Source of the DNA: Echinococcus granulosus
Lineage: Eukaryota; Platyhelminthes; Cestoda; Cyclophyllidea; Taeniidae
DNA: 64,000 nucleotides
Direction of reading: 5' to 3'
Assembly (NCBI RefSeq): GCF_000524195.1
Contig: NW_020170398.1
Coordinates: 556,102-620,101, forward strand
Part shown: positions 3,401-36,100 of the stretch, one piece after another
Layout: each line of letters begins with the position of its first letter
How positions within the stretch are numbered: position 1 is the first letter of the stretch
Notes under the pieces: model-generated
Seen by the model: the letters and a program-made list of their open reading frames with translations, nothing else
Database searches by the model: none
What the model was told of the DNA's origin: nothing
Translations under genes and position numbers: made by a program

Positions 3401-6400
3401 AGTAGACATTGCCTCTAGCGCTTCATGCCGGCAATTATCCTATATTATATTTCCAGTTATTACTATGAAAGTAACTATGTAATAATAATCCGTTGCTTAG
3501 AAAGGTCGATTACAATGCGATAGTATTTGGTGGGGAAAAAGTGAAAAGAGTCCACTGATTTCGTGGTACTTTCCAACTCTCTCAGCTACTTAAGCATTTT
3601 TTGCGATTATTGGTTATGAGTAAAACAAACTGTCGTTACAACTCAGTAATGAGAAACTTATGTCAAAATTATCTGATTTCTGTTGTCTCCCCTTTCTTAA
3701 GTTTCCATTATGCATTAAAGAAAGCTGGCATGTGATAGCACCAGAGGACCTTGGGTATTCATGGCTAATGCCACTATTAGTCGACAAATAAAGTGCAAAT
3801 TGATTTGACATTATGGCATAATTTTACAGGTCAATACTGTCCTTTTTTTCAGCAACAAAGAAATGTTTCCTATGGTTAATATCCTCACTCTAGATCCTAA
3901 AAATGTTATTATTTATGCTATGCAAGCACCATCAAATAGGGGAATGGAACGGTTATATATCAAATAAAGGATGTCAGCCAAATCTCAGTGGAATTTCATC
4001 ACTGCTATGACTTTTACTTCGATAATGTCACTTTTGATTCACCAACAGGACTAAAACGATATGGTTCTGTAAAAGTGCCTAGCCACACAACTGTAAAAAT
4101 CCTGAAGTTGCCAATTCACTAAATTTCTAAACTTCTTAACCATCTTTTTATAAAAAACAGTTTTGAAACAGTACTTAAGCCCAAGAGAAGCTTGAAATTA
4201 TGCCGCTGATTTCATATTCTTCACTGGAGTAAGCACGCCCTGTTTCAAGATGTAACTGAATTACTAACGCATGATTTGCTGTTCCAATCGGTTTTATTAC
4301 CTCCAGAATGAAGTGTGAGTCTTTGGGGGTCCTACAACAAATCTACGTGGGACTACATGATTCCAATGCCCATTTTGATGAGGACGAAGAGGAGCCGAAA
4401 TACGTTAATCTTCAATTGAGCAGGCGGAATCAATGGAATTGTAGAACCATTCTAGTGACAGATGGTCGCGATGGCGAGACATATCTATTCAATATAAATC
4501 AGTGGATAATAGCCACACCTGAAATTGACCGCCGAATGTGCATCGCTGCCCGACCTGCTGAGTTACGAATCATCAAACAGAAGAAGGTAGAAAATGTAAA
4601 AGGTAATTTCTCAGTTTACTGGATTTTGCTCGGAGAGGAAGTAAGAATACGTGTATAGTTGGTAGCTTGTCTTTGTTAATCAAATCTGTGTTAAAGTATT
4701 TAAATATTACTAAAACTTCTTATTTAGTTGCGTATTTCAACGTGCGTATGGTGAATTTCGAGCGATTCTTTATGCAAGGAAAGCTCAAATCAAATCGGTA
4801 CTTTTCAATTATGTTTTTTGCCTAAAAGAATGCTATATTTCAAAGCCTATAAACTGCTTTTACTTTGCAGCAGTTATACACTCAATCCAGTGTTAGTCGA
4901 ACACGTGAAAAGCCTCTACATGGAAAGGTCTTTCAGTACAACAATCATTTCCTATCAGCTTGTTTGTCTTAATGCCTATAGTAAAGTACCACTTTGAAAT
5001 TAGCAAATGGTTGTGTTCATTGATGGTGCAGAAAAATTGGCCCCTCAGGCATCCGGGATTGTTGATTTCACGCATTGGATAATTGTTCAAGATTTGCAGG
5101 AGCTTTGACTGTAGTGTGCTGGGATTGTCAGTGACAGCCGTGCGTAGGCCCACCTACGATGTGTTGACACTCTGATGGCCTCTTGGTGAGCAAAAAGCTA
5201 TTGAGCATCACAGCTATCATAATCACGAAGTGTAGTTTAAGTCTTTTATAGGTATGAGTAGATATTTTCAGAATTGGGTTTGATGCCTCTGTTAAAAAGG
5301 TACTATTTTTATCACCAAGTGCGTTGAACGCAATCAGACACTACCTGTTCCTAAGGCTGTGGTTACCACAGTTGCCCGCCATCTTGTTGAAGGGCGTTTA
5401 AACCAGGGTGGACTGGCCATTAACATGAGGTTTCACTTGAACGTTCTCATCTGAGCAGTTTGTGCAATCCCTAAAAACGTATAGATCCCTTAATCCTGTT
5501 CCAGATAAAGGAGTGTTCAAATTACTATCGCCTTCAAAGCACATCATTAAGCATCTCTAATTTTCCACTCTTATAGAATTTTTAGATTATAGCACGGCTC
5601 CAACAGTGACGTATAAGATTAGCATCGAAACGGGTGCTGATGTGAACGCTGGAACAACAGCAAATGCCTACATCACCCTTTATGGCAATCAGAAGGGTGC
5701 AACTTCGGGTTCGCAACGACTTCAGAGAATTTCCAATCAGACGTTTGCACGAGGAAAAGTAGATGTATTTTTCATTTCATGCGCTAAATTAGGTATGTCC
5801 TGCTTTTAACATCTCAATTTTACCACTTCCTAGCATTCAAATTTTCCTCTAGAGGATTGTCTGGCTTTGACTAAACCGAAAAATTACTTGATATGATGGA
5901 TGAAACTTTAGGTTTTGTGCTAAGACAATGGCATGACATGTATGACATGGATTTCATGAGTCATCGCTACAAATCCTATCGCAGGGTTCGAAAAAGGGAC
6001 ACAAAAGGCTTTAGATGCATTAATCTAATGAAATTCCCAGAAGTTAAAACAAAATCTCGACTCATTTTATCACTGCAAATAAAGAATGGGAGCACCATTG
6101 ATAAAATTTTTGAAGGATGTCTCTTCCCAGGGCTATGCTAATACTTTACGTTCTTTTGAAATATTTAATCTTTTGGTTGGCAACGGATTTTACTCAGTAT
6201 TTACCAAACCGGTAACTTAATCCTTTAAAATAATGACCAGCCTGTAGCGTCCCGAGACTCCCTGAAGACGAAAGAAGACACAATACTCGTGCAGAATATA
6301 TATATATTCAGCACGGAGAAGGTGTCTGGGCTATTGGCATGGCCCGAAAGGCCGGCCCACCCAGCGAGGTACAAGGGTGCTAATTCAAAGTAAAAAAGTG

Positions 6401-7953
6401 GCGCCGAGGGATAAACCACTACCGTATTGCATAGCCTCCCTCCTCTTTTGAGCGTCGTCCCCGGCGCTCCCACAGGTCAACCTCCCGCGTCAGCCATTAC
6501 AACGTAGTCGGTGCAGTAAAGAAACATCCACGAGCCAGTCACCAAATTAGCGCGCAACTTGACCTCAACGTCACTGATCCCTCTTGGCGGCTTGACTGGA
6601 TCTGGGGTTTCGTCCGGTTTAGGGATTTGATTCAGGACGAGAACTGCGCCGGCCATTATGCGTGGCCATAGGTGTCTGGGCTATTGGCATGGCCCGAAAG
6701 GCCAGCCCACCCAGTGAGGTACAAGGGGGCTAATTCAAAGTCAAATGTGGCGCCTCACTAGAACCGAGGGATAAACCACTATCCTATTACAAGCCTATTC
6801 AAAATTTGCACAGAATTCTGAGATTATCAATTGTGCAGTTTCTCTACCTCGGCGACTCTATTTAAACAAGGCGTATCCGTTTCTTCACTCCGTCGAACTT
6901 TAATTTGTTGCCTTCGAAGCTTACATTAATTGGGAGGTTCGATGCTAACATTCAATTCCTAGAAACAGCCTTTTTTGCACTTTATGCATATACATGTACT
7001 ACAAAAACTTATTCTTTTTTAATTAGACCCCCTCAAAAGGTCGTTTTCAAAATTTTTTGCAGCTTCAGAAATGTTATGCAAAAAAGTTGGAGTTTAGGCT
7101 CTTCCCTACTCATAATTTATTCAGTCATTTGGTATATTGCCCTGAGGGGCTGTAAGCGTAACGAAAATATCTAAAAACCGCCTATTTTTGGTAAAATAAA
7201 ATATGAGAATGACTACCGAATAAAAAGTTATAATCTGACTCAGACCAAACTGAGTGTTACAGAATGCGCTCATTTAAAGCCCAATTTAACCCGCAAGTTT
7301 CGAATCTGAGGTTTACAAAGAGGTGGAAGAAGAAGCTGGCTTCGCTTTATTCAAACAACGAATTTCGCCTCTGTTGCTTGTTCTATGAGGTAGGGAATTT
7401 TTAGCATTCTTTCGCTTGCAGACAGTGCGATTCATTTGAGGACAATAATGTAGCTAAAACCGTAGAGCTCTCTCCTATTTCACAATTACCCTTTGGAGGA
7501 AATACAAGGAATGCATGTGTAGAAATCGACTTCGACATTCTCCGGTATTTGGTCAACTTTTGTAGAAAGAGATTCCCAACAACTCATTGTTGCACATATA
7601 TTTGTCTCACAAATGTTAGAAGGACTTAGAACATTCACGATGTTTAATGTGTCTCCTTTTCTGCGTAGGTGCTGCTCAATGCGTTTCAGTGTAAAATCGT
7701 AAAAAATGATGATGCTGCTTAGAAGAAAACCCCCTTTTGGCACTTGAAATAATTTTTTGTTTTAACGTTTTTAGGTGAGGTGAACCGCATTCAAATTGAG
7801 CATGATAATGCGGGAGGTTCACCGGATTGGTTCATTAAGGGTGTCACGGTAATGGATACAAGTACTGGTGATGTGTGGACATTCCCATGTGATGCCTGGA
7901 TTTCTCTAACACAGGGATCCAAATCCCTAAGGAAAGAGTTAAAATCCTCGTGA
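417..7953 (+). CDS. LOXHD1: LOXHD1-like PLAT-domain protein, 3' part (5' end outside window)
   Basis: Seven exons are supported: 417-632, 986-1140, 1580-1979, 3120-3279, 4307-4602, 5577-5792 and 7775-7953 (TGA at 7951-7953). Phases agree at every junction and give about 540 codons. Three PLAT (lipoxygenase homology) domains are visible. PLAT 1 spans exons 2-3 (motifs YKIRI, LGELTGCRLWHDN, WYFPCNRW). PLAT 2 spans exons 4-5 (YFIDVET, LGVLQQIYVGLHDSN, YLFNINQW). PLAT 3 spans the last two exons (YKISIETGADVNAGTTANAY, VNRIQIEHDNAGGSPDWF, WTFPCDAW). The first exon encodes a non-PLAT linker. Chains of PLAT domains with no catalytic lipoxygenase domain are typical of LOXHD1, which in vertebrates has about 15 and is needed by hair cells; PLAT domains generally bind membranes or proteins. 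The acceptor of the first exon and the donor at 1980 are weak. The family call is strong; strict orthology to LOXHD1 is inferred. Confidence 0.85.
3852..4132 (+). pseudogene. Degenerate PLAT-like half-domain inside a LOXHD1-like intron
   Basis: A good acceptor (pyrimidine tract then AG at 3850-3851) is followed by an open frame reading NKEMFPMVNILTLDP. It hits a stop near 3967. In the next frame, from about 3945, the text continues as VIYQIKDVSQISVEFHHC and FYFDNVTFDSPTG, which has the spacing of the second half of a PLAT domain. Joining them would need a one-base shift at a GGGG run near 3943-3946. The flanking exons 3120-3279 and 4307-4602 splice to each other in phase without it. It is probably a decayed or sequence-error duplicate exon. 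Confidence 0.4.
6239..6795 (-). mobile_element. Non-autonomous LTR retrotransposon copy, internally deleted
   Basis: A left LTR runs 6243-6431 (TGTAGCG to TATTGCA) and is followed by the family polypurine tract (read on the minus strand) at 6432-6454. Internal sequence reaches about 6668, and then a right LTR missing its first ~75 bases runs 6669-6791 (ending TATTACA). The 4-bp target duplication AGCC sits at 6239-6242 and 6792-6795. It lies in the last intron of the LOXHD1-like gene, antisense to it. No protein of its own is encoded; the short open frames across it are LTR sequence. Confidence 0.8.
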
Positions 7954-9902: not shown

Positions 9903-10041
9903 TGCAGCGCCCCGAGACTTCCAGAAGGCATTAGGACTACTGGCATAGCCTGAAGGCCAGCCCACCCGGTGAGGTACAATGGCCAAGACAAAGTGGCCCT
10001 TTACCAATATCGACCGTTAAACAAACAATCAAAGTATTGTA
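9903..10041 (-). repeat. Degenerate solo LTR of the same family
   Basis: It begins TGCAGCG, continues with CCCGAGACTTCC, and shares the core GGCCAGCCCACCCGGTGAGG and the following AAAGTGGC with the intact LTRs at 13894 and 14784. About 35 bases are deleted near the start, and the end near ATTGTA is diverged. No target duplication is recognised. Confidence 0.6.
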
Positions 10042-13000: not shown

Positions 13001-13889
13001 ACCTCTGTTCCTTGGACGAATGATGACGTTCATTTTTTTGTTTCACTGACATAGATGGTATCTGATATGTGACCCATTAATCGGCCATTTAAATGAACTA
13101 CCGCCCTGTTTAATGCAAATGAAGGACATGTCAAATGGATTCGGCCACGATAAATGTCACACTAGAAAGTAAAATCGTCAATGCTATGATGTAAGACGTT
13201 CGACTCAAAAACTGCAGCTGCGAAATCAGCCAATCTGTTAGAGATACAAGTAGGCCAAAATAATCATTATTAAGTGCTATATAACATGGTAGCAACAAAC
13301 GTTACCGTTTCAAAATCACTAGCTGCTAGTTTTAAAAATATACATCAAGTTGTGTGCAATGCGATAACTTTCATAAAATGGGACCAAAAAGAAATTCCAA
13401 CGCTGTTCTATTTTAGGCAAATGGTTTTACTTTCTTAATTGCTGGTAAGCTTTAAAAAAAAGACGAAAAAGGCTTGACGATGCATCAGTCTATATTCTTT
13501 TCTGTTAGTGCGAAATCATAAATGCCCTTTCATGACAAGGAAGGCAAAAAACTGCACTGCCAGAAACCTTAGTACAAATACTCTTTCATGATAATTACTG
13601 AAACCTAGAACCAAAAGATGTGTTTCTTATTGTCCTGCATATTTTGATAGTAAAAAGGGGGTAATTTATGTGTTTTAGAGACATAACTTACCTGTAAAAA
13701 TGAGTCTACACGTGAAGTAAACACTGAATACCGCCTAACCATTTTATTACACAAAGTAGCAGGATAATATATGCGCATTCAGAATTGCAAAAAGTACATG
13801 TAAATCACCATATTCGCAGGCTCTAATCAAATTGCAGACAATGATATCATTCAAATGAATAACAGCATTGATGTTTGCCGTACTGACTT
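10042..13889. other. AT-rich region, no gene seen
   Basis: Short open frames occur on both strands (for example minus 12159-12551, 130 codons) but show no family motifs and no splice partners. An alternating TA tract lies at about 12858-12876. Nothing else is supported. Confidence 0.45.
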
Positions 13890-14089
13890 CTTATGTAGCG
13901 TCCCGAGACTCCCCGAAGGCGAAAGAAGACACAATACTCGGGCAGAATACATATTCAGCACGGAGAAGGTGTCTGGGCTACTGGCATGGCCCAGGAGACT
14001 AGCCCACCCAGCGAGGTACAAGGGGGCTAATTCGAAGTACAAAAGTGGCGCCTCACCAGAACCGAGATATAAACCACTATCGTATTACA

Positions 14090-14112
14090 TAGCCTCCCTC
14101 CTCTTTTGAGCG
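14090..14112 (-). other. LTR element polypurine tract
   Basis: Read on the minus strand, a 15-base all-purine run (AAAAGAGGAGGGAGG) sits three bases from the start of the 3' LTR. This is the expected place for priming of plus-strand DNA synthesis. The same tract is conserved in the copy at 6432-6454. Confidence 0.7.
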
Positions 14113-14635
14113 TCGTCCCCGGCGCTCCAACAGGTCAACCTCCCGCGTCAGCCATTACAACGTAGTCGGTGCAGTAAAGAAACACCCACAAGCCGACCGT
14201 GCCAGTCACCAAATTATCGTGCAACTGAGGGGATACTTAACCTCAACGGCACAGATCCCTCTTGGCGGCTTGACTGGATCTGGGGTTTCGTCCGGTCTAG
14301 GGATTTCATTCAGGACGGGGAACTGCGCCGGCCATCATGCGTGTCCATAGATAGATGCAGGAACACTGGCCTAAAAGCAGATTTGAGTAAGGAAGTACAA
14401 GATTTAAAACAGGTCCATGGGGGACGGTAGGGGAAATCCGTAACGAAACTTCCAGATGGTTCACGGCTAGTGTCACTTCAGTTGTTAATAGCTTTTCTGC
14501 AGAACACGGGACTGGGAGAGATGCCGAAGGTAGACGTCAACATCAACCCTTCTGTTAGGGGTCATCACCATTCTACCATCCGTAGCATATGTACTTCTTC
14601 CACCCTGCTAAGGCTTATCACGCAGAAGTGAAAAA

Positions 14636-14735
14636 NNNNNNNNNNNNNNNNNNNNNNNNNNNNNNNNNNNNNNNNNNNNNNNNNNNNNNNNNNNNNNNNN
14701 NNNNNNNNNNNNNNNNNNNNNNNNNNNNNNNNNNN
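14636..14735. other. Assembly gap of 100 N
   Basis: A run of exactly 100 N inside the interior of the LTR element. The round length suggests a scaffolding placeholder, so the true internal length of the element is unknown. Confidence 0.98.
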
Positions 14736-14759
14736 TCAGGATTCATGTCCTCTAAGATA

Positions 14760-14782
14760 GGGTTCGCTTTCCGCTGCCACCA
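14760..14782 (-). other. LTR element primer binding site (tRNA-Leu type)
   Basis: Read on the minus strand, TT then TGGTGGCAGCGG follows the end of the 5' LTR. The 12 bases are complementary to a tRNA 3' end of the form CCGCTGCC-A-CCA, as in animal leucine tRNAs (known from family sequence). This fixes the element's direction. Confidence 0.7.
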
Positions 14783-14985
14783 ATGCAGCGTCCCGAGACT
14801 CCCTGAAGACGAAAGAAGACAAAGTACTCGGGCAGAATATATATATTCAGCACGGAGAAGGTGTCTGGGCTATTGGCATGGCCCGAAAGACCAGCCCACC
14901 CAGCGAGGTACAAGGGGGCTAATTCAAAGTACAAAAGTGGCGCTTCACCAGTGCCGAGGGCTAAACCACTATCGTATTACACTTA

Positions 14986-17900
14986 AACTAAAGATTAAAA
15001 AAACCAGGGCTTTAAGTGTGATGTGATAAAAAAAACTGTATTAAAATAATTTGCGTCGTTCTTATGCTCCACTGCGTACTAAACGTATCGTAAATCAGCC
15101 ACTAGAAGCAGAAAAACAAATCTAACACCCACCGTCTCTCAACTGTCGATTATGCTTGGTAAATGTTCATATGGTTGCTTCATGCATATGCTAAGAAAAG
15201 GTGATATTCTTCTCTTAAAAAAAAAAACTTTCGTTGGAATGAGGAGAATAGAACTGTGTCTTCCTACTCTTCATTCTAGAGTGCAAATAGTCTCACGCCT
15301 CGCTTTTACCAAGGGGTGAAATATGAAGTCTTATGCCGTCCTAATTTGTCTCGCAATTACTAAGTTCCTACGGGGTTGTTGTCGCGTTGTTGTCGTTTTA
15401 TTGACAAGCTAAAAAGGCGTGGAGATTAAAGCATGCGGACGAGGTTTCAGAAGTATTTATTGTGATCAAAGGTGACACAGTTAATTGACACCTACACCAA
15501 CTGGAATGGCAAAGTCGTGGAAACTACAATCCACATGTCCGCCATATGTCAAGCTCAAACAGTTGGCGGGCGGCAGTAGACGGCGAAGACTGTCGATTTG
15601 TTCTTCACTCCTCCACCTACTAAGAACGTGCCATTTTCGCACGGCTTGGTGACACTCGCACGTGATGTGAATGGGCTTTTGTGTGCCAATATGAAGCAAA
15701 CCCAGGAACGGACACATTAGGGATTTGCCCAAAGCGATTCACCACCCACACTACCCACCCCACAGTTCTGATGCACGCACAATTTCACCCCATCAGACTG
15801 TAGATTGGAGTGCTCAATTGGTGAAGGCCAAAATGCAATTGCGGCTGAGATCCATCTCCTCGATCCGATACAACAACCCGATGCAACTGGAAGGTGAGCA
15901 AGCAGAACTTCTCCTTAGGAATTTAGTGAAGTATTTGGTACAAAGCCCAATGTTTATAATTAAGAGAGAAGTAGGACGGCATAAGGCCTCATATTTCATC
16001 CCTTGGTAAAGCAAGGCTTGAGAAGGAGAAGGACACCGCCTCATACCTCTTCTTCATCCAGCGGACCACTGTCATTCTATCTTGACATGCAAAATAAGTT
16101 TAACAGTTCTTTTGATAGGTGCTTTAGAATAAAGTTGACTAGACCTGTTTCTCTGATTATATAAGCAAATGTTATGCAAAAGCAGGGATCTATTCTCTGT
16201 AGTGCTTTATCGGGTCATGTGCTATTTGGTATCAGTGAAACTCTCTTTACGCAATCTAATTTATAAAGGGAAGAACTCTGGACAGAAATGAACCAAGGGG
16301 ATGCCTCACTGCCTTTGGAATTACATGTCTTTCTTTTTCATGAAAATTTAATGACTACATTTCCTGACCCGTGATAAGGCGTTTTGAAGCGCCGGCTCAC
16401 TTGTGTTAACCTGAAGCGGAAGTTCCACGGACGGAGGTCAAAAGTAGAGGAGGGCTATCTAATTACGCATTATTTGTAACTGCACGGATTGCCCTTACAC
16501 CTGACGATAGGGCTGGAAGATCGTGTTTGTAGCCTTGCAGTCCTTCCTTCCATTAAATAAAAGGACCTCGTTCACACTGGTATGGTGTATTGCGAATTGA
16601 AAAAAAGACTCGAGATGTTAAATTTGTGCACAAAATATGCGTTAAGATGTTGTACTATGCTTGTTTCGAGATTTCGTCAAAGTCACCACAATCTAGGAAT
16701 GGTAGATTGAGATTTCAAGACTTTATTTTGATATAAAATTTAACAAAAAATTAAATGTTTACCCCACTATACACTACCTTACCACATAGTTTGGAGGTTA
16801 TTCGAGTAAATTTTATAAGACATTTTGAGGATTCAGTTTTGTAAATTAAATAAATTATTCACTCTTTGAGCTGTCACCTCACGAGTCACCAATTTCAACA
16901 TAAAGGGACCTGATCTACTTTCCCATGCAGGACTAATGAATTTATGCCCAAGTGAAATCGTCTTATAAAATATTTCTACAGCCAATCCCTTCCTTTTAAG
17001 TCCCGAATCCATAAGTTTGGATAATAATTTTACTGAATTTTAGAATTCCCCACATGGGTAGCAGTTGTTTGATGCCTTCTACAATTAAATTGAAAGTTAA
17101 ACAAGGCCTGTCGACTTTGTTGCTTTCCCTGGCAAAGTTAATTCACCGCCTTACATGCAATTTATCATTGGTAACACATTTTAGCCTGTTAATTGAAAAT
17201 ACTGCCATAAAAATTGTTAATTTTGTTAACTGGCGGCATTCTACACTTTTAAAATGCACCATTGAATTTAAATAAAAATATGCCCAGACTTTAAGGCTTA
17301 CCTTGTAGCATAAAATGACTTTAAACAAGGACAATTTTAGCCAAATTCGAGTGACAAGATAGCATTACACTATATTAGGAAGGAAGAAGATTTATTAATA
17401 ATGTATGAAAATGACACGTGTAGAGGATGGAAGAGCCCCAGTGGCTGGGCAAATTCTTGCGAGATCTAAACCTGGTAGTCTAACAGAAGTGAAAATAACA
17501 TCGATGAATTGGAGTTTCTGGGCAAATACCACTTCCTAATGCTAAATCTTTTTGGAAGTGTAGTAGAGATTTTCTGAATATCACATCCTCTGCAAGGCAA
17601 ACTATTTAAAAAATAATTCATTTTCAGTTACTTTCACAAAAAACACATTCTATATGCTAATTGCATTTTGCCGTAATAGTTGATTGAAGGCAACATAAGG
17701 AGGGATAATCCCACTTTTTCAGACTGTGGTATGAACCGATGTTTGGAAGGAGGAAGGTAAGATATTCTTCAAAGTCAATTGCCATTTGTTAGAATTTGAT
17801 GGCACTCTATTAGCTGTTCCGTTATTTATTATCCAAAATTAAGAATTTGTTAAAAGTCTACATCATTTTAGCCCTTTTTGGTGAGTGTTCATGCAATTCA

Positions 17901-24098: not shown

Positions 24099-24110
24099 AT
24101 GGTACCATGA
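24099..24110 (+). promoter_or_regulatory. Three-codon upstream ORF overlapping the protocadherin start
   Basis: ATG GTA CCA TGA lies in the leader, and its stop codon overlaps the main start codon (ATGA arrangement at 24107-24110). It could allow termination-reinitiation or lower translation. This is only relevant if the transcript begins upstream of 24099. Confidence 0.35.
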
Positions 24111-27100
24111 ATTCGAAGGTGCGAATTCGATGTACTTTCTTACTTATTCTCTGGTCACTTCACGTCACCTTTGCCTGCAAATATCTGCAATTATTTCAAA
24201 TTTTGGAGACAAATGCACTGCAGAAATCCAACTTGCCCTCTTATGTTCCATCACAAGCTGGAATTGCTCAAGACGTTTCGATTAATCTAACTAAACTCTT
24301 CCAAACCGAACTGTCCATCTTAGGAGATGAGGCTCGACAAATTGCCATCTTTTTTACCGATGCGACGGAAAGTCGTCCTTTTACTATCAAACAACTTAGA
24401 GACGGTTCGCGTATACTGACCAACGAGCTACCCGTTGATCGGGAGGAAATTTGCAATCCATTCAAGTTTCCCCATCATACTGCCGTGTCTCGTAAGTGTT
24501 GTGCAAAAGGGGATAGTGATGATGGATACAAGGAGAATCCGTTCAAATCTCAACTTGATTTCCCGTGCTGTGTCTTCTTGGGTATCACAGTTGAAAGTTA
24601 TGGGACTTTTGCCCTTCGCATTGACGTAATCGATGTGAACGACAACCCTCCTCGATTCAACCTACTGCCAGAGTTTACTCTGAGTCGTGCTGGTAATGAT
24701 TTTCCAGGAGTAATTACGATAATGGAGAATACAGCACAAGGAACTATTATTTCCCTTCCACAGGCATTCGATCTAGACGAAGGCAAGAATGCTGACTTGC
24801 TGTTCCATGTAGAGAAGAATAGCCCACTGGAAGCTTGGGAACAACATTTTAAGTTACTGTCCGGACCAGACGATCGTTGCATCACAAATTCACTTACTGA
24901 GTCACCACAAAGGGATGGGACATTTCCAGCTCTGTGTCTTCTTGGAACAATTGACAGAGAAACTGTCAGTGGCTTTACCTTTGATTTAATCGCAAGAGAT
25001 CAAGGCGAACCCATGGCTTTAACAACCACTCTCTCAATGTCAATTGTTGTGAGTGTTTTTACTCTATCTGCAAACACGACTCATTAATTATCTTTTTTTG
25101 TACATTATGGACAGCTGGAATTAGTAGCTGGTGTTTTTTAGATCGCCAAACCTTCATCTTTATCTAGTTCAGTGTACTGGATAATTAAGTCCAATGCGAA
25201 GCTCCACCTTCAGATAATGCAGTTTGATGTTCAAGATCCTACAGCAAGTGATTCAAAGCCAAAAAGATGTTGAGTTCAAGTCCAACTTTTTGATTAGGTG
25301 ATAAGACTGATAGGTAGAAGCGATTCCCTATCAAGAATTGTCAATTACTTTGACATAATCCCTTGAAATTTATATACGCGACTCAGTTATTTGTTCTGAT
25401 CTCGACTACCGTATTATTAAAAGAAATTGAATTAGGACTTTTGCCTGTGAGAAAGAATTCGTTTATGTAATTGAATAATCTCCTCTGGAGTAGTGATTTT
25501 TAAGGCCTGAGGTTGATGTCGGACTACTTGAAAGAAGAGACGTATCTGCCTGGTTAAAAGGAGAGTATCCATCCCTGGGTAAAAGTCACGAACTGTTGGA
25601 CACACACACGCATACCAGACTCGCCTTAAAGGTATTTTGTCAGGAAAGGGTTATTTCACACCTAGAACTTGTTAGAGGCTCTCGCCTTCCAACAGACTTT
25701 CTTTAAACTCTGCTATTTTTAGGACGGTGCCCTAATATCATGAAGGCATAAAAACTCTTGTGAATATATATTTCCCAGGTAATAGTCGTAAAAGGTGTTG
25801 TCTAATGGCTAGCAATGCCCATTCAAAGCTTTAGCCCACTCTGTCTCCTTGGGGTTTTGACAGCTGTCAAGCCCAGTTGATGGCTTTATTTACGGCTTAT
25901 CATTCGGGTTACACAGCCTTCTGTTTATAAAATGTAACCTTTTCTTAGACTTTTAAACCATCTCGTTTAAGTAGGATTACTGGGTATTTTTCATGGCAAA
26001 GGCAGGACTTTTTTCTACGCAAATTCTAAATCACGCACTATTTGTCAAAATTTATGCTGATTTAGCAATAGTAAAATCCCAATTTTAGTCGTTAAAACAG
26101 AATAAACCTCGAAAATTTCCATTTTTAATGCGTCACCTTCCTCCGGATACGCCCATCACTGTTTCTCGATTACTAATAACAGGAGTTAATATCTCCTTCA
26201 CTCTTCCTCACGTCGAAACCTTTTCATTCTCCTCTTTTTTTCCATGCTATCATAACATTCCAACCCTACCCACTTAATGTTAAAGTAAACCGGTCATTTT
26301 AATGAGTCCTCAAAAAAAGGAAATTTGACAGATTTTTACACTAGAGATGGTTTCAACCTAACCTTTATATTAGAACTGCTTTTGTGATTTTGAGATGTGG
26401 TAATATATCTTCCAAATTAGTGTCTCTAATGTGAATAAATTATGGCAATATCCTTTGAAGTTTATGTCTCCCACGTTTTATTAAAGACAGGTAGTTCGTA
26501 TCGGTGCTTTGTCTCTTCCCCTTTTTTACGAGCGAAAAACGGGACTCCCACTTTACCGCCTTGCCTTAAAGACGTAAGGTAAATCGAGGAGAAACAGAAA
26601 GTAGTTCCTGTAGGCAAAAGCAAAAATAACAGAAAGAGAAAATGCTAACTGACGACTTTTGCAGTCTTTTCTTCTTAAAGATGAGTAGATTAAACTAACT
26701 AGGACTCTTTCATACCTAAAAATCGACAAGAAGGCAAGAATTATTAAAGGAAGTATCAAGTCTGCTATTTCCGCTTCACAAATATGATATATGACAATTT
26801 GTTTAGATTTCCATTATTTGGTGGAATTAGAGGCGCTGTTAGGTCAGCACGCAAGCATGCCTAATCACTGGGTCGCTTGAGATTGGCAATTCTTTATCTA
26901 CTTTCCCGACACGTCACTCAGACAATCCTGTTTTTTACCGGAAGAAATGCACTTCAAAATAAATGTCTCGTTGTTAAAGGGTAAAGTAGAATATTATAAG
27001 TCAAGTGGTTCCTCTTTGTTATGGTGGGAAAAAAAACATTCTTTGCCGTCATTGCTTGAGCTTTCTCTGAGCCAAGGCGACGCCTTGACAAACATTGTAT

Positions 27101-30100
27101 GAAAATTTTGTTGAGATGTAGGATATTTGAAATATTGATGTATTTTTTTAGCCCGGTTCCTAGCTTTAATATATGCTTGTGTTAGATCTTGCCATTGTTG
27201 CAAATGACTGTCAGGAAATCAAACAAAACCATTCCACTGTTGTCATTAATGGAATTCTCAAGGATAATTTAGAGGTTGGTAATATTTCCAACAAAGTTAT
27301 GGAATTCTTTCCTTCCCTTTTAACTATTCCAGTCATTTACCCATATTTTCGCCATTTCCATTAGGTTTTGGATGAAAATGACAACGCACCGACTTTTAAG
27401 CAGAGTGAATTCAAAGTTTTTGTGAAGGAGAATGAAGTTGGCAAGACTTTGGTCCATCTACGCGTCACCGACTTAGATTCGGGTGAGAACTCGCGTCTGA
27501 GTTACTCTCTACGACCTGGCGGTCATTTTGCGACAAATCAGAAGCCCCCCAATGAGTTCCTTCTAATGCATGTCCTCGCCTCTCCAGCTCCAGATGGCGT
27601 TGTCCTTCGACTTATACAACCCCTGGACTACGAGGCTGTCAGCTCTTTTGACTTTGAGGTGGTGGTTCAGGACCATGGAACACCACGGTTAGCTTCCACT
27701 GCTACGGTTTCTGTGGAAGTTCTCAATACCAATGATCAGCCACCAGTTATTCGATTTTTTAACAAGGGTAATTTACTCAACTTTGACTATGCCAGTCTTG
27801 AACGGGAAGAAGATACGGACGACCAGTCGCCTAAGGTCATTTGCCACGTTCATGTCCACGATCAGGATACTAGTTTGGATGAGGTTTTTTGTGAAATTAG
27901 CTCGCCTCAACGACTGTTTGATCTGCGTGAAGTAAGGAGTGAGAATACAATACAACGAAGGAAGGTTTACGAGATGATAAGTTTGGCTCAGTTGGATAGG
28001 GAAAGGGCGCCCAGCTACTTAGTTAATGTTCGTTGTGTTGACGGACGAACAGCCACACGATTAATTGGACAAAGTCAAGTACGTATCATCCTTAAGGATG
28101 CAAATGATAATCCACCATTGTTTGAAAAAGATCAATTCTTTGGAACGGTGGGAGAGAATGAGGCGAATGCTCTGGTAGATTTCAGGGACTCATTTATCAA
28201 TTATGGCCAATCTTCTACGCAATATGTGAGTACATCCCACATTCATGCAACTGATGCAGACGTCGGACCGAACGCTGCAATAAACTATTCACTTGCTCCT
28301 TGGAATCGTGAAGGAGATACTAATTCGACAATATCAAAAAAGGAGGATTACGAGTTCTTTCATATTGACAGAATCACTGGACAATTAAAAACACGTGTAC
28401 CATTGGATTTTGAAGCGAAATCATCGTACTACCTACTAGTGGTTGCTACTGATCAACCTCTGAACGCCTCACAGGCTCTTTCCTCCACAGCAAAGCTGAT
28501 AATTACGGTAATTTACTTTTCATTTTGCCTTTCTATCTATTTTGGATGGCCGGATAGTGGGTATTACAATTATCATTACTTCTAGGCAAAAAAATCACTT
28601 TTTCGGTGTATTAGTTTGTTTACTTGTTTATTTTTCTGGCTCTCAGATTATGAGAACTCATAACATCATACTTTGTTATTCCTAACTTATGGACAGTCGA
28701 AGCTGACAGGTTGTTAAATGGGAAACAAGAGTGAGAGAGTTGGTGGATTTATATCCCTCAAACACAACGCTTTAATTATTTATGTGTGAAAATTCGTCAC
28801 ATTGAGGTTCTATCAGATTCTCTCATTAACCTTTTTCTCATTTTTAGTTTTGATTAGTGCATCGACCCCTTTTTATGTTAAAAATGGGGGCTTATCCTCT
28901 TTGTCTAATTGGAAATCCACGTATGGCTTTTATCAAAATCTCACTTCACGTCATTTATAGCCTTTTCAGTATGCTTGATGTGCTTATGCGGTAAAAAAGA
29001 TGCTCAGTGAAGAGAAATGGATATTAGTGTAGCAAATTTAGGAATTTATACGATGTACAAATTAATAAGCGTGCAGTATTGAAGCTTTTTGTGTTTCAAA
29101 TAGACCACTTTGTTAAGAACTACGGGAATTAAGTGAAACTCACCCCACTTTTATCTCCTTGGGATTTCTGTCAAGGTAGTGTTGGCAAACAGACCCCAAC
29201 TGGGAGTCATTTACCAATTACATTAGGTTAAAATAAGGAATAAGTTTATTGCCTAGTCACCTGTTTGAAAATGAGTCGTATTAGTTTTTACGGCTCCAAA
29301 TGCTAATGATTGCTGGGTTGAGATACAAAAAGGCTGCTATAAGAGAGAAAGACGTTAGTTTACTAAATGAGCCAAAAATCTGTTCTCCTTTGCAAAGAAA
29401 TAATAAAATAAAGTAAGAGTCCTTCCAGTCTAAATTAGGAATTTTAGCTCCAGGTCAACTAGCACTCGGAATAAATACACTATCTTTTTGCCTATTATCT
29501 ACTGATTTCATGGTTGTGGTTGTTTTGATACCTTGGCACAGCTTCTACCCTTTTTCACATTTGTTATGGGACAGCATGCATCCTTGTACTGACATCACCC
29601 CTTTGAATGATAAGCAGTGTCTTTAAAACACCCAAAGCTTCTCCCTATGACAGGTGAAAGCACCTATAATCATCAAGTACCTCCCTTTGCATCACATTCT
29701 TCATGTTTTACTTTTTAAAATTAAAAAGAGGGAATTCCTAAGCCTAAATTCAGGAGATTTAGCGTTTGACCTAATTATGTATACCAATTGATCATCTTTA
29801 CGGAAATGGGCGTGTTTGCATATCATAGAAACTAGAGGTTTATTTTCCCCTTTCGTATTAGCCGTTTTTATCAAACCACGGAAGCATGGTCTGACCGATA
29901 CAAGGGACCATTAATGCCCTCTTTCAACCTGTCATGGCAACACTAGATTTGTGTACTGACTCATTAATGCCCAATCTATTACTATTGTCCTCCATATTTT
30001 AAAGTGTGATTTTTCTCCAAAAGGCAGTTATAGCTTTAACAAAGACGTTGACAAGACTTATAAACGCAAATCCCCATTTGATTATAATTTGTGTATGCCC

Positions 30101-33100
30101 TTCAAATTACCTTTTCCATTCTATAAAACGCTCCTATAGGTAATCTTACCAACCGTCCAAAAAGTAAAATCCTTTCCACTCTTTTTCTTTGTACTTTAAG
30201 TGAATTTCTTCTTTCTTTTATGTGATCAAACTATATTAAGGTGATTCACTCCTCTTACAAAATACACGCAGTCATTCAGTTAGTACTCCAAAATTGTGTT
30301 CATAAAGAAAAATTTTTGTTATAAAAAACCCTCTTTACTCCAGCTAGCCTTACTGTTTTTAAAATTTGCAAAAATGTGCGGAAGTTTTAAATGCTTCTCG
30401 TATCAATTTCCGTGTTTCGTGATCTCAATTTTCAGTAAATTAGTGTGAGCACGGATGTTGTCAAGACCTCAACCTGAGCAAATGAGACATAAGAACGTCT
30501 GTATGGAAACCTTTTATGCCGAGCAAGTGCCCACTCCATTCACTGATGCAGTTCTTTCAAGTGGTAAATCTTCTCATACCATTTTGGATGGCCTTCACCT
30601 TGCAATGATCAATAAGGAGAGTACCTGATGACAGGGCAAAAGGGAAGTGCTCTGGAATGTTTGAGAATTGGTCATGAAAAGAGGAAATTCGAGTTACCAA
30701 CAGAAACCTGTAGAGCTGTAGTTATCCTCATCAGAGACACTATTAAAATGGAATTAAATAACTTCATATGCATTGTCATCAATCCGGGTACTAGATTTGT
30801 CCATTATACTAACTGCTTGGCATGCGTTTAGAAGATGTTTGACTTTTTGAAAGCAAAGTCTCAAAGTAGAGGTACTAATCTGGGGATTGTAGGGTGTGCA
30901 TTATAAATTCATGTTTAACGCCAAGCAGTCATTACCTCTGGGAGCTACACATTTCCTCGACTTGGTCGAGTGACTTCGTCCTTCGTGCCAGAAGATGGCG
31001 CTTATTGAAACGTGGAGACGGTAAGCCCAAAGCAAGAGCAGCGTGGAATGCCGCACTTCCAACTCTCGGCAGATAGCTAAATGCTCCGATTTCTATCACC
31101 CGAAAAATACCCTTTGACTCTCATCATCATTCATTGTTTAATTTTTTCCCCAATGGGTGTTTTTTGTTAGTAAGCCCCTTTCCATATGAGTACGGGAAGT
31201 TATCAAAAAATAGAGCAATTTTCTGTTTAATTTCTCGTGGCGGTATGAAGTTGCGATGACTTTTAGTTGTTTTAATCATTCAAAAACCAATTACTTCCAC
31301 TCCTTTTGCGGTTGTTACCTTTACTTAATACTTCGTTCCACTTTCCTTATAGAGGCTGCTTTTTTTTATTCCCACTACCTCAATTTGCGTGATTACGCGC
31401 CTTCCATGTTCTACCCTAACAATGTCACAAACTTGTTTAAGTCAATGCGATTACCGATTAAGTTATTATGGAATGCAATGGAAAGTAGTTCCCACTAATT
31501 TTATCGTAAAAGTGACGTCCGCAGTAGTAGTAGTAGTAGTAAAACTTGAACTCGGGAAAGGCAAAAACGTTGCTAAAACTGGCCACATTTTGCTCTGCGA
31601 TTCACTCCATATAGTAAACATCAGGTGCCTAGCCGCTGTCATCTAGTGGTGACTGGAGGTAAAACGGAAAACAGATGATGTCGAATAGATTTGTGCCCCG
31701 CGATTTAGAGTTTCACGAATCTGAATGCAAATGTCGAATTAAACCACAACTTCACCAGGACATCCATGAAAAGTTATTTGAAAGTTGTACAAGCCCCTTT
31801 TGAAGTAAGAAAAACAAATTCAACTTGATAAACGCTTGAGCTACTCTTTTTGTAAAATCAAATGTGCATCACTTGTGGACCATTTTTAGTTTATCCGATG
31901 TATACTTAACAGGTAAAAGACTTGGATGACAACCCACCCACAATGCTGCACCAAAATTACTCCTTTGAGGTGACAGAAAGCATGCCAAGTCACACTATCG
32001 TCGGTCGAGTTGAAGCCACTGATGCTGACAGTCTGCCCGAGAATCGTATCATCAGCTATCAACTGCGGACACCCACCGTGCCTCTGCCAGGTGATGACAG
32101 TGCTGTCTCCTCTGCAGCTGCTAGTGCCACAACTTCGACTGCTTCTACTACTGCTGCCCTTCACTTCTTCACTATTGACAGGCTAGTTCGGCTTATTCTA
32201 CTTGATTTACTGCCTGATTGTATGCACTGCCTTCTTTCCTTTTTTCAAGTCAGTGGTTTAAATCAGTTGGGGTTGTCACGTGGAAAAAAATGCGCCAATA
32301 GGTCCATCACTTCATCCTTCATTTTGCTTTCTTCTGATAATCTAACTATAAAAAGCAAAAAATAGGTCTGTTGTGCGTACATCTACACTTTTCAAGCAAT
32401 TATTTAAAAGTTTAATACATTAACTTTGGGCGATTTGTGCACGCTCTGATATTATCTAAGTAGGTGATTGCTGAACTTCCTGATGTTTGCATGATCCACG
32501 GTTTCTAGCTTTTCTCAAGTCATAGAGGTAAGCTCCCGTTTTATTACTCATTTGCTTTTAAAAAGGATCCCGTACCTCAAATTTCTTCTCTGTCAAGTGT
32601 CCTCTTGTTCTTGTCACAAATAAGTGGAAATTAATCCTACATCTATTTTTGGCCGTAATCTTCCGTATCCTCATTGCCAATTGGATTATTCACAACCACT
32701 GGGCAAAAGCTGAAGAATGGGTAGCCCTAAAACTATAAAACACTATTTTTCAGGCATTCTGGCGTTATTCGCACGAAACGTCCACTGGATCGTGAACAAA
32801 CACCAAAGGTGACGCTGGAAGTTGTTGCTTACTCGGGATCCCCTGGACGGTTTCGAACTAATAATATCAACCCATCGTCTTCCACAGCAACTGTTGTTAT
32901 CACCATCCTGGATAAAAATGACAACGCGCCCTATATGGTTTCACTGGCTTCACCAGATAAAAAAAGAGTCCCCCTTGCTGAGGTGATTATTCCTTCGGAC
33001 AAACTTCAAGGTAGACCGCCCATTTGCGTTCCCTTTCCTTATGCATTCACCGATGATGACGAAGAGTTCAGCGGTAATGGAAATGCCACTGTAAGTCTGG

Positions 33101-36100
33101 ACAGCAATCCAAACTTTGAACTCAGTGAGGACCGAAGCAGACTATGCCTTAAGGTGGATAATAGGAAGGGTAAGAAGAAATCTATAACACCTCCACCCCC
33201 CGGTCAGTATTCGTTGAATCTGCTGGCTCAGGACAACCCCAAGGAGATCATCCACCGACTAACGAAGCGATTTCCCCTACGTGTGATTATTCAAAGCCCT
33301 CTGCAGGATTTCACTACATCACTGGGTACACCGAGGCACCAAGAGTCGGTATCATTATTTAAGTCGTCACGAATGGTGGAGGAACCTGTGAAGCGACAGC
33401 CAGGGAAGTCAACTGCAGCAGGTCGCATCCTTGGTACAATTCAACGACCATCTTCTACAACATCCAACCGAGGTGTAGGCAGTAGTTGGGAGCACAGAAA
33501 TGTTACAGTTATTGCCGTTTTAGTGTGTATGGCTTGCATCCTCTGCGTTATCCTCTTGGCTATTCTTCTCTTCATGAAGAAGTGTACACATATGAAAAAT
33601 TTCATCGTCAAAGGTAAGCACCATTGCTTTAGCTACTAGTGATCCGTATCATATCAACGAGTGTTGTTTTTCTTACAACAATGTGTCACATTGGAAGTGA
33701 ATTATTTGACGATTGATCAGATTTGTTACGATTAACAGGTCTTTTCATGATCATACTTCTGATAATATGGTTAACTTAATGCTTCTATTAACAAGTGTTC
33801 CTCTCGGCTTCTTTATCACTATTGCATATTAGACTGAGGATACCAATTACTCAATACAAAGTTTGGGTCTTAAAACAGATATAAACTTTTGAGTAAACTG
33901 ACAGAAGAGTAAATATTTTCACCCAAACTTTTATGTATCTTAAATGGTGTTGACTCCATGCAAAGTAGTCTTTTCCTTTAACCTAGTCATCTATAAACTG
34001 CACAAAAAGGCTGAGTTCCGTTTCTTTATAATTTGCAGCTTTAATATATATTTTCGTTTGAAACAAAAACTGATATAGTGTCGTACATTATTGCCAGAAG
34101 GTACTAGGGATGTCTGAAACCTCAGAGGTTGTGAATGTGCGATTGGTCCGACTACCATCTCCTTCATCCTCTTCATCTCGATTTTTGAGCTCGGCTGTGT
34201 CAAAGGCTTTGTAATGATGAGAAAGGAGCTTTCCATGGTGGGGTGGCTTCTGCTTCATACGGTGGTGGATGCAGATTTCACAATAGATAAGACCATACTT
34301 TTTGTGAATGTGAGGTGATTTCGGCAGCTATGTGAGTGTTATGTTTTTAATATTCACGCTTGAACGCAAATTTCTTCAGAATAAACTATTTCATCATGCT
34401 AATCAAAACAAAGGCCTCGATTCAATAACCAGGTAAACGAATGTAATGAACAAATGCATTGGGTCTAATAAACACAATACTAAGGTGATTAATAGCTCCC
34501 TTGGAGTTTGTAATCCTCTCGAAGTGGGATAAATGATATTCGAAGTTTTAGGCAGGGAAGTTTCCTTCAACGAATTAATTTTGGTATCCTAATCACGAGA
34601 TGGTAGGCGTTTTGTTGATTAATGTTGAGCGGTGCAGTATGGCTGAAGAATTGGCAATTCATAACCGTGGGTACATTCGAAAGTTTGTATTTTCTCTAAC
34701 AATATTTCATCACATGGAGGGAGAGAGAGGGAGATAATTATCACCGACCCGTTTTACTGCGTGCATGCCAATGTGGAGAAAATGAGTGTGATTAGAAGCA
34801 GTTTCATGCAGAAGAGCAGCTACGGCTGCAACAATGATGGCCCTATTTCCCTCACCCAGCGAGTGTCAATGACGGCCGCTGGCTCCCACGCCCATATCCC
34901 TTTACGTGCCTCCTCTCAACCCCACTGCCTCCCCCAACCCCCATCTTCCCCTCTCAGTTATTTTGACGTCTCTTTCGCCGGGGTGATGCCATCGTCTCTG
35001 TCTCACCTCGCCACCTCTTCGCCTTCTCCTACCCTTACATCATCCCTCCTGCATTCTTCCATCCTTTAAGCTATTTCCTGTGATTGACGAGAGTGAGTTC
35101 AAGATAAATTTAAAGATGCTTTACCTTCTGAGTGTAGTCAGCAAAATAACTCAACTTCGGGATTTGTATTTGTAAAATTAACTTCAGATTGACAAAAGAG
35201 ATTTTCCTCACCTCCCTTTTACACGCGTTTCTTTTGGAATTTTTTGCAATATGCAAGAGAGAGGTTTCACCCACTAGATTTGAGTAGTCTCCACTGCCGT
35301 AGAATTGCTAATATTTTAGTCTTAAATGGCCAGCTGGAATTTGGAATGTCGTAGGCCATGGTTAATTTCTTTTTCTTTTCCGTCGTAATTCCCTTTCCAC
35401 TTCTTTTTAAACAAAAGTTAATTCTATGAGATTTTTCAAATTCTCAAACAATACCAGAGAAAAAGGGAAATTTTCAGATCAAACAAGGTGGTCTTCAGGT
35501 GTTTCGCTTTCGTTTCAGATCATCACCGACCTCAATCGCAGACAAGTGGTCTTAACGCTCCAATCTCCGTGACACTGCACGACCTTTCCCCTAAGGCTGG
35601 AAAATTTACTACCATTGGTCGTTATCCTCCCTTCAAAACGGATCTCTATCCCTGTGTAAGTGCAAAACTCTGCTTACTCCCTAATTTGACCACTTTACTA
35701 GTTAATCTCTCCTATTGTGACAGAGAACTTTTTAGAACCTGACCCAAACTATTTTGATTTTAAATTGGGCAAAGAGCTTTTGTGGTGTCTCGCCAGACAT
35801 TGCGAACATGATTTTGCTACCGCCAGAGAAGACGCCTGTGGGGGGGGGGGGACGGGGTGGGGAGGAAGCGATAAAATCGAAAAAGGCGTTTTTTTACATC
35901 CTAAAAATCGACTTAATTTTACTGGTTTCTAAGACGTGTCTCACTGCCTTACTGCCTCGATTGATGAGTAAGGGGGGTCTCCACGTCTACTTGAAGTCTT
36001 CTAAATTTAAAGACTTTCCAACAGGTACGACCCGTCTTCTATGCGGTTAATCAAGTTTAATTACTCAACCGCAAACTTGCTCACTCATTATTTATGTTTA

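Follow-up and report, generated by a model that had tools for sequence, protein, structure and literature searches.

The window, a stretch of 64,000 nucleotides of the Echinococcus granulosus genome, contains a pair of long terminal repeats (LTRs) that enclose a short interior interrupted by a run of 100 N. This locus raises the question of what kind of element it holds and by what means such an element could have moved. As set out below, the element is almost certainly a copy of ta-TRIM in an Echinococcus genome, the RNA of which would be mobilised by a lennie-like element of the Ty3 type. The ta-TRIM family is already known, and the window copy is an ordinary one for the tapeworms of Echinococcus and Taenia; what is new is modest, the younger LTR pairs and a 3' stretch common with elements bearing reverse transcriptase (RT) being small additions.

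Anatomy of the element and its surroundings

The initial annotation had described paired LTRs, a CTTA target site duplication (TSD), a 12-base match to the 3' end of a leucine tRNA just inside one LTR, and a polypurine tract (PPT) just inside the other. The LTRs, the TSD, the 12 bases and the PPT were found again at the same positions (Table 1), and both LTRs were bounded by TG...CA. Since the element lies on the minus strand, its right-hand repeat is the 5' LTR. The primer binding site (PBS) occurred only once in the window, and the mean for the same 12 bases in shuffled sequences, with one mismatch allowed, was 0.03. The LTR pair showed 18 differences over 196 aligned bases (14 transitions and 4 transversions), and from this divergence of 9.2%, at a rate of 7.1e-9, the window copy is estimated to be old, at approximately 7 million years.

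Table 1. Positions of the ta-TRIM element, its parts and the other ta-TRIM pieces in the window
Feature	Position	Strand	Description
ta-TRIM element	13890-14985	minus	LTR pair, TSD, PBS and PPT
TSD adjoining 5' LTR	14982-14985		CTTA
5' LTR	14784-14981	minus	198 bp, TGTAATAC...GCTGCA
PBS	14771-14782	minus	TGGTGGCAGCGG, 12 bases, 1 base off 5' LTR
Interior	14090-14783	minus	594 known bases and 100 N
Scaffold gap inside interior	14636-14735		100 N
PPT	14093-14107	minus	AAAAGAGGAGGGAGG, 15 bases, 3 bases ahead of 3' LTR
3' LTR	13894-14089	minus	196 bp, TGTAATAC...GCTACA
TSD adjoining 3' LTR	13890-13893		CTTA
Second ta-TRIM copy, internal deletion	6243-6791	minus	flanked by GGCT (6239-6242 and 6792-6795)
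Old ta-TRIM LTR remnant	9923-10022	minus	83% over 47 bp to 5' LTR

The view that the element is TRIM-type, non-coding and parasitic on an autonomous LTR element was likewise supported. The only open reading frame (ORF) above 120 aa listed at the element was antisense, on the plus strand, and spanned the N gap, and the longest ORF in a sister copy (L015) was 91 aa. Across positions 13500-15500, Rfam returned nothing at E up to 1, nor did the window contain any match at gathering score; because neither a tRNA nor a 5S match appeared in 13500-15500, there was no sign of a pol III type of element. The fold of the 546-base interior RNA was no better than those of shuffled sequences (z = -0.05, with 51 of the 100 shuffles equalling or bettering it).

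Two other ta-TRIM pieces were present in the window. The copy at 6243-6791 consists of LTR positions 1-123, then the interior from position 286, and then the 3' LTR; for the old remnant, a second comparison gave a span longer than the 47 bp listed. Elsewhere in the genome, ta-TRIM LTRs were seen beside or inside older ta-TRIM LTRs at C220:141217, C223:457386 and C245:659336, and further at C155:225085 (inverted) and C266:1391069 (same strand). Such neighbouring copies suggested self-nesting, that is, insertion beside older ta-TRIMs, for which enrichment was not established. The proportion of ta-TRIM-like bases in the flanks was 5.6% at 29 loci selected by the interior and 5.7% at 7 loci selected by the LTR, and the control flanks gave 0, 1.7, 2.6 and 3.1% (groups of 7, 20, 12 and 5 loci, respectively); after subtraction of the loci's own interrupted LTRs from the 5.6%, about 4.5% was left, to which L011 and L012 contributed approximately half.

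Several observations concern neighbouring and other genes. The ta-TRIM element lies about 9 kb upstream of, and in the opposite orientation to, cadherin-like ORFs on the plus strand of the window (24107-33639, with ORFs at 24107, 27368, 31922 and 32809, the later ones recognised by eye), of which the 24107 ORF had Protocadherin alpha-4 of Taenia crassiceps as its best named match (78%) and an unnamed protein as its best match overall (80%). More telling as to the host was a single-exon receptor of 513 aa, whose nearest match in the database was a protein named E. multilocularis (97%, 15 residues different), followed by Taenia asiatica (85%) and Hydatigera (79%); relatives closer still may be hidden among the seven sequences, clustered at 90%, that this match represents. 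Separated by 14 kb, two GPCR loci (L077, C190:351198, and L078, C190:365175) gave identical match statistics and each carry a ta-TRIM remnant at 958-1078; either the region was duplicated recently or the assembly contains it twice. COX1-like, frame-broken fragments (L071 and L072, C84:42156-43243) probably derive from mitochondrial DNA copied into the nucleus. A published gene primer of E. multilocularis (PMC4558846, accessible part) matched here with 2 mismatches of 21, and the surrounding 3 kb contained no ta-TRIM. Together with the receptor, this primer indicates an Echinococcus genome that probably does not belong to E. multilocularis.

Family identity, integrity and age of the copies

Genome searches with the LTR and the interior yielded 1,550 and 1,263 candidates, respectively, in keeping with a family repeated genome-wide, and the best 40 of each were scored. 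With the interior query, 30 loci were fetched, namely the window's own, 24 complete copies and 5 incomplete ones that were left out (L021, L023, L025, L028 and L030). Among the complete sister copies, TG stood at both LTR starts in 22 of 24 and CA at both LTR ends in 22 of 24; TGTAATAC opened both LTRs in 19, the exact 12-base PBS was retained in 18 and the exact 15-base PPT in 20, and TG, CA, PBS and PPT were all intact in 14. An exact TSD flanked 13 of the 24 (11 of four bases, and 2 only when five bases were compared), and four-base flank matches were found in 11 of 24 true pairs versus 6 of 552 mismatched flank pairs taken as control. The genome copies thus have target duplications and, for the most part, the same ends, contrary to the first of the two refuting conditions set in the initial annotation.

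Its suggestion that the family could be undescribed, on the other hand, did not hold. ta-TRIM was described by Koziol et al. in 2015 from Echinococcus and Taenia (PMC4558846, cited here and below from the accessible part of that paper). As given there, its two LTRs measure about 198 bp and have TG and CA ends, and it possesses a leucine tRNA PBS, a 15-base PPT located 3 bases ahead of the 3' LTR, and an interior of about 590 bases without ORFs longer than 120 codons; the TSDs in E. multilocularis are mostly of four bases, the family criterion being 4-5 bp. The window element agrees with this description in LTR length and ends, PBS position, the PPT and its spacing, interior length, the want of a long ORF, TSD length and its taeniid host, of the genus Echinococcus. 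The U5 sequence also agrees: two published U5 primers (PMC4558846) matched the 5' LTR with 1 and 1 mismatches, the 3' LTR with 2 and 1, and the 6243-6791 copy with 0 and 0, and for each primer the plus strand beyond the element offered nothing better than 8 mismatches.

A TRIM family not yet described and only similar to ta-TRIM would have to coincide with it in all of these features, the genus and U5 included, and is very improbable, although the published sequence compared consisted of primer-length pieces and the primers placed mid-LTR in individual E. multilocularis loci (loc21 and loc60) matched less well, with 6-7 mismatches in ungapped comparison. Just as improbable is an autonomous element that only looks shortened, with gag-pol hidden in the 100-N gap. 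The record does not give the true length of the gap, but in all 29 sister copies readable across this position the two gap flanks abut, exactly in 26 and with a one-base overlap in 3 (36 loci were examined, 7 of which lacked one side or both), and the interiors of the 24 complete copies measure 590-595 bases; nothing corresponding to the gag-pol that the initial annotation had named as its second refuting condition was found there in the 29. Since the two sides abut in all of these copies, the gap probably hides nothing, and comparison with them makes it most likely a scaffold artefact with zero bases missing, though the window copy might carry a private insertion. The element is hence treated below as a ta-TRIM copy.

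The tRNA that pairs with the PBS is presumably a leucine tRNA, by likeness to animal leucine tRNAs. The leucine assignment was also made for ta-TRIM, for which 9 complementary bases beginning 4 bases from the LTR are given in the accessible part of the paper (PMC4558846). Animal tRNA genes generally lack the terminal CCA, which tRNAs gain after transcription; counting it would extend the complementarity to 12 bases beginning 1 base from the LTR, the 12-base match noted in the initial annotation. A leucine tRNA gene ending in CCGCTGCCA had no exact occurrence in the assembly, and with up to 2 mismatches this ending was found at 4 places, none of them called a tRNA by ARAGORN. In a general tRNA search of the assembly, 63 of 4,447 candidates were scored. 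A locus without an ARAGORN call (L085, C8:7880-7901) resembles an intron-bearing tRNA-Leu(CAA) gene, the anticodon having been read by eye, and its end, CCGCTGACA, is one base off the PBS complement.

The LTR divergence of the sister copies ranged from 0.5% to 16.3% (gaps ignored, n = 24), with 6.1 and 6.6 as the two middle values. Nine of the 24 lay below 6.1%, which is the minimum among 21 E. multilocularis elements in the accessible part of the report (PMC4558846), and two were at 0.5%, which is about one difference and which the published rate of 7.1e-9 converts into roughly 0.35 million years. Exact TSDs were found in 6 of 6 copies at 3.5% divergence or less versus 7 of 18 older ones (Fisher P = 0.016), this line having been drawn post hoc, after the data were seen. 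Because nine copies fall below the E. multilocularis minimum and all six of the least divergent have exact TSDs, these comparisons suggest that ta-TRIMs probably moved more recently here than in E. multilocularis; the sample, drawn by its resemblance to a single copy, may be biased towards young copies, and gene conversion between LTRs can imitate youth. For E. canadensis G7 and E. granulosus G1, evidence of active retrotransposition is described as lacking in the accessible part of another report (PMC5327563). The present genome adds a second Echinococcus lineage for the comparison of LTR ages. If the youth of the 0.5% pairs is true, the published halt of ta-TRIM movement in E. multilocularis would not be genus-wide, and insertion polymorphism between isolates would become testable in worms reported to be without the canonical PIWI pathway.

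RT-bearing loci and the candidate helper

The RVT_1 profile had 26 matches in the genome; the 20 loci read include one overlapping pair, L058 and L067. CA-N-TGGTGGCAG was present upstream of RT, on the RT strand, in 5 of the 20 (L051, L055, L060, L063 and L068), with one more match on the opposite strand of L068; it was found in none of 30 control loci, some of them overlapping, and the reversed pattern was absent from both sets. Genome-wide, CANTGGTGGCAGCG was counted 180 times versus 6 for its reversed pattern, the first 100 places being listed. The LTRs of L068, a shortened element with RT, lie at about 490-724 and 2573-2796, are 72% alike and begin with TGTTATAC and TGTAATAC; L068 also has a PPT and the 12-base PBS. 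LTRs of this family were present as well in L014 and 7 more RT loci; the RT of one locus with this LTR family (L050), the one RT tested, was of the Ty3 type.

The initial annotation had proposed a search for an autonomous element sharing LTR ends and primer site. RT loci with the PBS, the CA ends and, in L068, the LTR start exist; those bearing the PBS are broken or partial. As 4 of these 5 had stops inside the RT match and the match in the fifth was partial, no working helper was seen among them. Conversely, no stop interrupts 6 of the 20 RT matches, and one of these 6 belongs to another locus with the L068 LTR family, which opposes a blanket claim of broken helpers. An element named lennie has been proposed as the helper of ta-TRIM; in the accessible part of that paper, it shares the first eight LTR bases and the PBS with ta-TRIM and has a 4-bp TSD and a broken pol (PMC4558846), and it is placed among the Saci2-like Ty3 elements in the accessible part of another (PMC12471100). 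The sequence features of the RT loci appear to be in agreement with lennie as the helper candidate.

As to the origin of ta-TRIM, descent from a lennie-like element by internal deletion, rather than convergence of the ends, would be compatible with the ta-TRIM identity, and we regard the chances as evenly balanced. Aligned to ta-TRIM, the 45 bases ahead of the L068 3' LTR outscored every one of 2000 shuffles, and still did so without the PPT, when the last 18 bases were omitted; the similarity extends about 25 bases past the PPT in L068 and more weakly in L058, the 3' stretch of which scored 10.5 against 10.0 for the best of 2000 shuffles. Moreover, L068 holds a second element on the opposite strand, to which the last 16 LTR bases and the PBS of ta-TRIM aligned at 82% in 28 columns (E 0.009). 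Against descent, the remaining LTR had no significant similarity, no ta-TRIM LTR among the loci examined matched the L068 LTRs at 1e-4, the RT loci with a readable 3' end that were compared numbered two, and a candidate hairpin in the common stretch was not supported over shuffles. In this hairpin, of six pairs and located ahead of the PPT, slid versions scored lower, but shuffles often equalled it (126 of 500 for percentage paired, 84 of 500 for covariation score and 56 of 500 for cells changed on both sides) in a sample of 14 sequences, comprising 13 of 41 rows picked by hand and L058. The stretch in common with RT elements ahead of the 3' LTR gives the question of the helper a definite piece of sequence to start from.

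The proposed life cycle of ta-TRIM builds on what was observed, namely the anatomy, the ends, the TSDs, the copy family and the cis sites common with RT-bearing elements. Transcription from the 5' LTR would yield a non-coding RNA of about 0.9 kb, as published for the family, for which expression in germinative cells is reported in the accessible part of the paper (PMC4558846). This RNA would be packaged by proteins of an autonomous, lennie-like Ty3-type element and primed at the PBS by a leucine tRNA; reverse transcription would proceed through the PPT, and a lennie-like integrase would insert the copy, generating the 4-bp target duplication. We further suggest, tentatively and at slightly less than even chances, that ta-TRIMs were mobilised here until very recently, though the five RT loci with an exact PBS are broken or partial, and that the helper is either elsewhere or replaced, i.e., that a working one is among other or missing copies or that another element took over the role.

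Comparison with known elements

Compared with ta-TRIM of E. multilocularis, as far as the accessible part of its description goes (PMC4558846), this genome differs in that several copies have LTR pairs younger than the minimum published there. The RT loci share the PBS and CA ends with ta-TRIM, L068 and L058 also the PPT region, and L068 the eight-base LTR start; in this they may be likened to lennie and the Saci2-like Ty3 elements, as described in the accessible text (PMC4558846, PMC12471100). They differ from ta-TRIM in carrying RT and in that most of their LTR is unlike it. Other animal TRIMs, as described in the accessible parts of the respective reports, namely those of bivalves (PMC6934838) and Helenus and Ajax (PMC10886601), are likewise short and non-coding with LTRs, a PBS and a PPT, a likeness to the window element that is one of description and not of sequence relation.
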